Assembly: GCF_020697055.1 (NCBI RefSeq)
Contig: NZ_JAJFBP010000005.1
Location: 1 to 64,000, forward strand
DNA from: Panacagrimonas sp.
GTDB lineage: Bacteria; Pseudomonadota; Gammaproteobacteria; Nevskiales; Nevskiaceae
Direction: 5' to 3'
DNA: 64,000 nt
Part shown: positions 50,162 through 52,776 of the stretch, piece by piece
How positions within the stretch are numbered: the stretch's first letter is position 1
Layout of the letters: every line of letters begins with the position of its first letter
Translations under genes and position numbers: made by a program
Notes under the pieces: model-generated
Told to the model about the DNA's origin: nothing
What the model saw: the letters and a program-made list of their open reading frames with translations, nothing else
Database searches by the model: none

Positions 50162-51205
50162 ATGACCACTCGCAAGCATCAGCTGCTGGATCTCGGCGGC
50201 ACCCGCATCCACGCCGTCGAGGAAGGCAGCGGCCCGCTGGTGCTGCTGGTCCACGGATTTCCCGAGTCCTGGTACTCGTGGCGCCACCAGCTCGGTGCGC
50301 TGGCCAAGGCCGGGTACCGGGCGGTTGCGATCGACCAGCGCGGCTACGGGCGTTCCTCGAAATTCTGGGACCCGGCGCAGTACCGCATCGGCGCGCTGGT
50401 GCAGGACGTGGTGGGCGTGGTCAAGGCGCTCGGGGAGAAGTCCGCGGTGATCGTCGGCCACGACTGGGGCGCGCCGGTGGCCTGGGTCGCCGCGTGGACC
50501 CATCCCGAGATCTTTCGCGCGGTGGTCGGCGTCAGCGTGCCCTTCTCCGATCGCGGCCTCGTCGGGCTGCCCGGCAGCCCGTTCGGCGAGGTCGCGCCCG
50601 ATCGCAAGCACATCGAGATCGCGGGGCCGGGCCAGGACTTCTACCAGGACTATTTCGGCACGCTGGGCCCGGTCATCAACGAGATCGAGTCGGATCTGCG
50701 CGGCTGGTTGCGCGACGCGGTGTGGTCGCTCTCCGGCGACGCGCTGGGCACGCTGGGCATCAACCTCGACACGATGGATCCCGTCGAAGTGATCCGCGGC
50801 AGCGCGATGTGCGTGCCGCACGGCCATCGGATGCGCGAGCGCTTCCTGTCGCCGCAGCGCCTGCCCGGCTGGCTGACCGAAGCCGACCTCGACGTCTACG
50901 TCGGCGAGTTCGAGCGATCGGGGCTGTCGGGCCCGCTCAGCTACTACCGCGAGATGACCGCGAGCTGGAATGAACTCGAACCGATGGCGGGCAAGCCGCT
51001 GACGGTGCCGGCGCTGCACATCAGCGGCGAGTTCGACGTGGTGCGCGGCTGGGCGCTCGAGACGATCGCGCGAGCGCCCGAGCGCATCCCGCAATACGCC
51101 GGCACCAAGGTGTTCGCCGGCTGCGGGCACTGGACGCAGCAGGAACGTCCCGACGAATTCAACGAGGCGCTGCTCGATTTCCTGAAGAAGTTGCCGGCGC
51201 ATTAA
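50162..51205 (+). CDS. alpha/beta hydrolase, epoxide hydrolase-like
   Basis: Protein of 347 aa. The oxyanion motif is HGFPESWYSWRHQ, the nucleophile elbow VGHDWGAPVAW carries Asp101, and the C-terminal His is in GCGHWTQQERP. An Asp nucleophile and WG following it, plus tyrosines in the cap (SYYREM), fit soluble epoxide hydrolases. The substrate is unknown. An in-frame ATG at 50114 is an alternative start, but homology begins at HQLLDLGGTRIHAVEEG. It interrupts the otherwise E. coli-like ubiI-gcvT order. Confidence 0.85.
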   Translation: MTTRKHQLLDLGGTRIHAVEEGSGPLVLLVHGFPESWYSWRHQLGALAKAGYRAVAIDQRGYGRSSKFWDPAQYRIGALVQDVVGVVKALGEKSAVIVGHDWGAPVAWVAAWTHPEIFRAVVGVSVPFSDRGLVGLPGSPFGEVAPDRKHIEIAGPGQDFYQDYFGTLGPVINEIESDLRGWLRDAVWSLSGDALGTLGINLDTMDPVEVIRGSAMCVPHGHRMRERFLSPQRLPGWLTEADLDVYVGEFERSGLSGPLSYYREMTASWNELEPMAGKPLTVPALHISGEFDVVRGWALETIARAPERIPQYAGTKVFAGCGHWTQQERPDEFNEALLDFLKKLPAH

Positions 51206-51237
51206 GCGGCGTCGGCGTTCGGCGGCGCGTCTCCAGG

Positions 51238-51371
51238 ACCCGCTCGCTGCGCGAGACACCGTGTCGGCGCAGGACCGCGTCACGGTGACCGAGCGCAGCG
51301 AGGCGGGTGCGGACGCGGTCCTGTCGGGCGCCTCCCGCACCCGCTCGCTGCGCGAGACACCGTGTCGGCGC
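51238..51371. repeat. 33-bp direct repeats with nested inverted repeat
   Basis: A perfect 33-bp sequence (begins ACCCGCTCGCTGCGCGAG) occurs at 51238-51270 and 51339-51371. Between the copies, CAGGACCGCGTC (51270-51281) and its reverse complement (51312-51323) form a 12-bp inverted repeat. A near-inverted copy of the GCTCGCTGCG unit lies at about 51290-51310. The 480-bp gap between the epoxide hydrolase gene and gcvT thus holds this repeat cluster, a promoter and a riboswitch; no other gene is seen. Confidence 0.85.
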
Positions 51372-51382
51372 CCGGCTATCAT
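51354..51382 (+). promoter_or_regulatory. gcvT: candidate promoter of the glycine cleavage operon
   Basis: GAGACA (51354-51359), a 17-bp spacer and TATCAT (51377-51382) lie about 20 bp before the first riboswitch helix. The -35 box falls inside the second 33-bp repeat copy. The upstream copy also contains GAGACA, but no -10 box follows it. Confidence 0.55.
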
Positions 51383-51402
51383 CCCCCGACGGCATCAACC
51401 CA

Positions 51403-51640
51403 CCCACGCGCGAGAGTCCGCAAGGCCCTGAAAAGCCCGGCGGCGCCGAAGGCGCAATCCGCTCGACAATCGCTCAGGCAAACGGAGCGCGTGGGAGTCG
51501 ATCGTTCGATGGATCGAACGATCGACGTGCCGACTCTGGAGAGCGTCCGCGATCAAAAGCGGACCACCGATGGGGCATGGTGCGCGGTCGCCGCACCTGA
51601 ACTCTCAGGTCCGGGTGGTCCACCGGAAAGACAGGGGAGC
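51403..51640 (+). ncRNA. tandem glycine riboswitch with hairpin linker
   Basis: Leader RNA of the gcv operon with two glycine aptamers. Aptamer 1 spans 51403-51495: P1 arms CCCACGCGC and GCGCGTGGG, core GCCGAAGGCGCAA, then CTCAGGCAAACGG. Aptamer 2 spans about 51533-51640: GACTCTGGAGAG, core ACCGATGGGGCA, then CTCTCAGGT and GACAGGGGAG. Between them lies a perfect 14-bp hairpin at 51497-51526 (GTCGATCGTTCGAT, GG loop). Glycine binding normally switches on gcv expression. A short hairpin near 51656-51676 just before gcvT may form the expression platform. Confidence 0.9.
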
Positions 51641-51684
51641 GATCACGACGCACACGCTTTGTTTCGCAAGCGCAACGGGATCGC

Positions 51685-52776
51685 ATGCTCTCATTGAAGA
51701 AAACCGCACTCCACGAACATCACCGACGGCTCGGCGCCCGCCTCGTCGACTTCGCCGGCTGGGAGATGCCGATCCAGTACGCCTCGCAGCTCGACGAGCA
51801 CCACGCCGTGCGCACGCACGCCGGCATGTTCGACGTCGCGCACATGGTGGCGGTGGACCTGCACGGCGCCAACGTGCGCGCGTTCCTGGCCAGGCTGCTG
51901 GCCAACGACGTCGCCAAGCTCAAGGTTCCGGGCAAGGCGCTGTACGCCTGCCTATTGCGCGAGGACGGCGGCGTCCTCGACGACCTGATCGCGTACTACC
52001 TCGACGAGTCCTGGTTCCGGCTCGTGGTCAACGCCGGTACCGCCGACAAGGACTGTGCGTGGTTCGAACGCCATGCGCCGGCATTCGGGGTCGAGGTTCG
52101 CCGTCGCAACGACCTGGGGATCCTCGCGGTGCAGGGGCCGCAGGCCCGTGCGCTGGCGGCGGGCGAACTGCCCGCGGCGGCCGAAAGCCTGGGCGCGTTC
52201 CACGCGTGCCGCGACGGCGAGCTGTTCGTCGGACGCACCGGCTACACCGGCGAGGACGGGTACGAGATCGTCGCGCCGCACGCCACGCTGGTCCGGCTCT
52301 GGGTGACGTTGCAGGCCAAAGGCGTGAAGCCCTGCGGTCTGGGTGCACGCGACACGCTGCGCCTGGAAGCCGGCATGAACCTCTACGGCCAGGACATGGA
52401 CGAATCGGTCACGCCGCTCGAGTCGGGCCTGGCCTGGACCGTGTCGATGACCGACGCCTCGCGCGACTTCATCGGACGCGCGGCGCTCGAGGCGCAGCAG
52501 AAGACGCCGCATCGGCGCCAGGTCGGCCTGCTGCTCGAAGGTCGCGGCGTGCTGCGCGCCCACATGGCGGTACGCTTCGCCAGCGGCCAGACCGGCGAGA
52601 TCACCAGCGGCGGCTTCGGCCCGACGTTGAAGCGATCGATCGCGCTGGCGCGCGTGCCGCAGACCGACGAAGTCGCCTGCGAAGTTCAGATCCGCAACGA
52701 ATGGCAGCCGGCCCGCGTGCTCAAGCCGCCGTTCGTACGCAACGGAAAAACCCTGATCCCGGAGTCCACGTCATGA
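51685..52776 (+). CDS. gcvT: aminomethyltransferase (glycine cleavage T protein)
   Basis: Tetrahydrofolate-dependent enzyme of 363 aa; releases ammonia and passes the methylene carbon from lipoyl-bound aminomethyl to folate. Signatures: [51 protein letters not shown] and [17 protein letters not shown]. The position after Gly-Trp and the conserved Asp in the folate site are intact. It is the first gene after the riboswitch, and its stop overlaps gcvH (ATGA). Confidence 0.97.

Follow-up and report, generated by a model that had tools for sequence, protein, structure and literature searches.

What becomes of the contact between leader and linker in a tandem glycine riboswitch when the linker carries a long hairpin of its own? 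In most tandem glycine riboswitches the leader is reported to pair with the linker in a helix named P0, and the leader-linker element was reportedly defined by Kladwang et al. and by Sherman et al. in 2012. The role of this element is disputed and, according to the available parts of two reports, it alters apparent cooperativity (PMC9481103, PMC12060979). The question is addressed here at a locus of Panacagrimonas sp. located on a window of 64,000 nucleotides, by which the whole stretch of DNA analysed is meant. A tandem glycine riboswitch spans positions 51399-51644 of the + strand; its components and those of the adjoining leader are the following.

51390-51395, + strand: P0, 5' (leader) strand, CGGCAU (unconstrained folds; compared with the genus-mates).
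51396-51402, + strand: junction strand leading from P0 to P1 of aptamer 1, CAACCCA, devoid of G and hence of a k-turn G1b.
51399-51499, + strand: glycine riboswitch aptamer 1 (RF00504, 63.8 bits, E 6.7e-11).
51403-51411, + strand: P1 of aptamer 1, 5' strand (folds).
51487-51495, + strand: P1 of aptamer 1, 3' strand (folds).
51497-51526, + strand: linker hairpin of 13 bp with a UGGA loop, the predicted third helix of the junction (letters and fold).
51526-51644, + strand: glycine riboswitch aptamer 2 (RF00504, 35.8 bits), whose strand before P1 carries an insertion (from the alignment).
51527-51532, + strand: P0, 3' (linker) strand, GUGCCG, immediately following the hairpin (unconstrained folds; compared with the genus-mates).
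51685-51687, + strand: gcvT start codon (Pfam GCV_T, E 1.4e-82; start kept in the genus alignment).

Both aptamers, in series on the same strand, exceed the RF00504 gathering score of 32. No other Rfam match at the gathering threshold was detected in the window, and no further RF00504 match at E 0.001 in the genome. The next gene after the riboswitch is gcvT (51685-52776), followed by two genes for GcvP-type proteins (Pfam) with a redoxin gene between the two; gcvH was read from the open reading frame listing alone. The locus thus appears to be a tandem glycine riboswitch upstream of glycine cleavage genes, at which control by glycine would remain. Aptamer 2 of all three genus members has an insertion between P3 and P1 (about 51610-51628) that might fold into a small hairpin, with the form CCGG-GCAA-CCGG in one of the genus-mates (G032); a similar insertion in two loci of genus g4 (L180 and L182) indicates that it is not restricted to the genus. 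Just upstream of the riboswitch lies an exact 29-base direct repeat (51239-51267 and 51340-51368) with only these two sites in the genome (up to three mismatches allowed), the second copy of which overlaps the -35-like hexamer of a promoter-like site. This sigma-70-like site (51354-51382), a consensus match at 9 of 12 positions, would start the transcript near the P0 strand.

The linker hairpin is a real feature of this locus. It was preliminarily described as a 14-bp perfect hairpin with a GG loop between the two glycine aptamers, and its location between the RF00504 matches, its letters and its coordinates were all borne out, the arms 51497-51510 and 51513-51526 being perfectly complementary around a central GG. 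A loop of two bases is impossible in RNA. The GG can therefore not close the stem, and the foldable form is a hairpin of 13 bp with a UGGA loop, in which 51497-51509 pairs with 51514-51526 (-20.1 kcal/mol). Its folding energy (z -4.74) was not equalled by any of 200 shuffles. It is also the only perfect hairpin of at least 13 pairs (spacer 2-10) in the window, where 20 first-order Markov simulations gave a mean of 0.0; for at least 12 pairs the window holds two, compared with a simulated mean of 0.2.

A six-pair P0 between the leader strand CGGCAU and the linker strand GUGCCG appears when the RNA is folded without constraints. The folds of 51380-51700 (z -2.18) and of 51388-51535 (z -3.98) both bring P0, P1 and the hairpin together in one junction. 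One base (A51496) lies between P1 and the hairpin, zero bases between the hairpin and P0, and seven (CAACCCA) on the leader strand between P0 and P1; from these strand lengths and the predicted helices it follows that P0, P1 and the hairpin would meet as a three-way junction. Both genus-mates change P0 on its two sides at once: G031 has CGGUAU/GUACCG, that is, one C-G replaced by U-A, and G032 has GGCC/GGUC, which retains four pairs out of six and has C-G in place of one A-U, so that two of the six positions covary within the genus. A second pairing register is possible in G032 (UCGAUC/GGUCGA).

More distant relatives were taken from a non-random sample made up of the best 80 of the GcvT similarity matches listed and 85 genomes of the same order. 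A first text pattern yielded 70 distinct tandems, whose linker segments fall into two classes, 28-33 bases (45 tandems) and 41-79 bases (25 tandems). Short linkers, which had been supposed to be the rule in the family, are indeed those of the majority of relatives by this one pattern. The complementarity between leader and linker was assessed by a swap test, in which the pairing of own partners was compared with that of permuted partners (5000 permutations). In the 25 long-linker tandems the own partners reached a mean of 13.16 against 11.22 for swapped ones (sd 0.46), a value attained in 0 of the 5000 permutations; after removal of four near-duplicates (n=21) it was attained in 9, and for the 45 short-linker tandems in 3. 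The signal resides in the mean, the own partner ranking in the top tenth for only four of the 25 long-linker rows. Prediction, comparison and swap test agree on a leader-linker P0 helix, and the normal contact looks retained beside the hairpin.

Whether the hairpin is peculiar to this RNA was left in the preliminary description to a comparison with the family, and the relatives largely speak against it. Both genus-mates carry a hairpin of at least 7 pairs at the same place, with another sequence and with GAAA and GCAA loops, and a linker hairpin was scored in 36 of 106 labelled gcvT-linked tandems; letters and length differ. Taken singly, the hairpins of the genus-mates do not surpass shuffles of their own GC-rich linkers (p 0.105 and 0.065, above 0.05), and their weight therefore comes from position. 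Among the long linkers, 13 of 25 contain a stem with 5 or more Watson-Crick pairs and a fold better than shuffles at 0.05, compared with 0 of the 45 short ones; the remaining 12 fail this test, which the hairpin described here passes (0/200).

On a GcvT tree the hairpin label changes at least 13 times over the 106 rows. The three genus members, all with the hairpin, group together with full support, and 11 of the 12 counted rows of the neighbouring genus g6 are without it. This was a quick tree with SH-aLRT support only, and 32 of its 103 inner branches are drawn open. Its rows derive from a looser pattern applied to 151 loci, by which 93 rows were kept, 9 lacked a clean gcvT and 46 showed no tandem, many of the latter having no riboswitch at that place; the remaining loci were dropped as identical proteins. 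Thirteen of the 46 were added by hand to reach 106, of which 11 were labelled from their linkers and two (L052 and L072) were labelled unseen and found on later checking to be short. L179, mis-split by the pattern, was set to hairpin by hand, and two Burkholderia loci with long linkers (L056 and L080), whose best stem spans at least 40 bases, were scored as lacking the hairpin.

Rescoring or omission of doubtful rows lowers the minimum to 11 to 12 changes. L205, whose stem contains one G-U pair, was first scored as lacking the hairpin, and its correction gives 37 of 106 rows and 12 changes. When, in addition, two Nitrosomonas loci whose stem may be spurious (L067 and L082, p 0.375 and 0.3) are scored as lacking it and L052, L072 and L097 are left out (L097 and L006 being one locus), 34 of 103 rows and 11 changes result; with the irregular stems of L017, L181, L200 and L203 also left out, 30 of 99 rows and again 11 changes. 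Second tandems located away from gcvT in some genomes of genus g21 (G075, G077, G082) stand outside these counts; their aptamer matches abut or overlap, leaving no room for a hairpin.

All 14 gcvT-linked loci of genus g21 have a linker stem whose letters change (9 distinct arm pairs), the second pair being seen as A-U, C-G, G-C and U-A. In these arms 45 of 45 outer cells are paired, compared with a shuffled mean of 29.8 and with 0 of 20,000 shuffles reaching the value, a count that leans towards structure since the arms were hand-chosen as those that pair. For 13 g21 linkers aligned with MAFFT, RNAalifold returned three weak pairs only (-0.44 kcal/mol). When the hairpin rows were folded as cut-down constructs, 19 of 34 gave a three-helix junction of P0, P1 and hairpin, although in three of these (L178, L179 and L206) P0 is in a different register or a junction strand is long. 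The 15 others comprise 13 that form no P0, including G031, where a leader hairpin competes, and two that form no separate hairpin. The stem described here is the longest perfect one among the loci examined; that of Cycloclasticus (L012) was read from the sequence as 11 bp, and the feature itself is common. The idea that the loop is conserved for docking was discarded, as the loops vary widely (GAAA, GCAA, UGGA, CUUG, CAUGAC and others), with GNRA loops in both genus-mates and L006.

Other departures from the usual architecture were noticed in the same material. Three genomes of genus g9 (G041, G039 and G048) each contain between 8 and 11 matches to the glycine riboswitch; within the order, two is the number met most often. 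By eye, L091 and L104 show at about 1300-1700 an extra aptamer-like copy some 200 bases upstream of a near-identical later aptamer and followed by GC-rich inverted repeats, and in L045 and L076 the P2 region of aptamer 2 is greatly enlarged, by about 100 bases or more, consisting in L045 partly of TTAGT-like repeats.

These observations are probably explained by a leader-linker element that has become a three-way junction, with P0 and the tethering of the aptamers kept and the hairpin added as a third helix. The 5' leader would pair with the end of the linker to form P0, and the hairpin would be an extra helix on the linker strand, located after P1 of aptamer 1 and before P0. Zero bases separate it from P0 and one separates it from P1, so that the hairpin would most likely stack on P0 and point away from the aptamer interface. 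P0 would still be made and the aptamers still held together, their dimer contacts presumably unharmed, and the sequence, length and loop of the hairpin would be free to vary. The riboswitch is of a known kind, and the hairpin of this locus is best accounted for as an uncommonly long example of a structural variant that recurs in it.

The proposal of the preliminary description was a different one, namely that the hairpin replaces the leader-linker contact, so that the aptamers are kept at a distance or work independently of each other and cooperativity may change. The length and stability of the stem would suit this, and some tandem glycine riboswitches do lack P0, as reported in the accessible part of a study on Neisseria gonorrhoeae (PMC13104608); however, P0 lies directly 3' of the hairpin in the unconstrained fold, it covaries, and tandems with long linkers keep their leader-linker complementarity, all of which makes the replacement unlikely. 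A true k-junction like that of TPP riboswitches, in which a leader-linker k-turn would contain tandem G.A pairs and bear the third helix on its non-bulged strand, agrees with the predicted layout, the third helix being opposite the loop strand and the hairpin contiguous with P0. Nevertheless, the G.A and A.G pairs expected 3' of the loop are precluded by the junction strands, J0/1 being CAACCCA and J1/T a single A, and of the 19 hairpin relatives whose junction could be parsed just 2 have GA in J0/1. A strand without G cannot form the defining tandem G.A pairs, so the likeness is one of layout only and a canonical k-junction, rejected on its nucleotides, is very improbable here.

The palindrome could also belong to the DNA rather than to the RNA, as a regulator site, a dispersed repeat or mobile element, or a terminator, and be in the linker by chance only; this is suggested by 30 bases that are perfectly palindromic except for the central GG. 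Against this, the hairpin is kept in relatives and its letters are not. In the genome assembly (90.6% complete) the arm has one site and the 30-base sequence is single copy even with up to three mismatches, on which a dispersed repeat or mobile element was rejected, and no terminator-like site, and hence no intrinsic terminator in the linker, was found in 51150-51800. An origin at the DNA level is the most implausible of these readings, and the three-way junction with P0 retained is preferred.

How the riboswitch would act on gcvT is suggested by a candidate platform helix at the end of aptamer 2.

51639-51644, + strand: candidate platform helix, 5' strand, GCGAUC, 3' end of aptamer 2 (conserved in three of three genus members).
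51679-51684, + strand: candidate platform helix, 3' strand, GAUCGC, abutting the gcvT ATG (conserved in three of three genus members).

The two stretches can pair and are identical in the three genus members. Over 14 distinct parsed loci the pairing of own partners exceeded that of swapped ones (19.75 against 14.37, sd 0.90; 0 of 3000), the other 39 of 53 loci, G032 included, being outside the text pattern or duplicates. The local fold of 51595-51715 does not exceed its shuffled controls (z -0.56). When the complete leader is folded to minimum energy, the start region (51679-51692) takes another partner, in the 5' part of aptamer 2, at 51539-51546 and 51549-51554; the second of these segments is the alternative partner of 51679-51684. 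As long as aptamer 2 is not folded, this pairing would mask the start codon. With either pairing, gcvT may be under translational control, in agreement with the N. gonorrhoeae model, in which, according to the accessible part of the report, a segment of aptamer 2 is paired with bases immediately before gcvT (PMC13104608).

Since relatives with and without the added helix are separated by many gains or losses, they constitute natural constructs from which the geometry required of the leader-linker element can be learned. For riboswitch annotation, a long linker should not be taken as loss of P0. In the available portions of the literature searched, neither a linker hairpin nor a three-way junction was found described for tandem glycine riboswitches; this body of work excludes the 2012 papers of Kladwang et al. 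and Sherman et al., in which the variant may already have been noted.

Three known systems place the locus. The gcvT tandem of N. gonorrhoeae, as far as the accessible text of its description goes (PMC13104608), resembles it in that translational control has been proposed through pairing of aptamer 2 near the start and in that aptamer 2 is less typical than aptamer 1; it differs in carrying its large insert in P3 of aptamer 2, compared with mainly the linker here, and in that P0, predicted here, is reported as apparently absent. With the tandem glycine riboswitch of RF00504 the locus shares two aptamers in series upstream of gcvT and a predicted P0, but in place of the two-helix leader-linker kink-turn the added linker helix would make a three-way junction, and the tandem G.A nucleotides of the kink-turn were not found at this locus. 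The k-junction of TPP riboswitches and of the DUF-3268 RNA, as presented in the available parts of its descriptions (PMC4005666, PMC10573300), likewise has its third helix on the non-bulged strand and contiguous with the helix on which it may stack; it belongs to a different riboswitch class and contains the tandem G.A pairs that are absent here. Tentatively, and with somewhat more doubt than confidence, it may be proposed that in a sizeable share of these proteobacterial gcvT tandem glycine riboswitches the leader-linker k-turn has repeatedly given way to a three-way junction of P0, P1 and linker hairpin whose junction strand is rich in A and poor in G; such a junction would still orient the aptamers and would thus be an analogue of the k-junction without G.A pairs.
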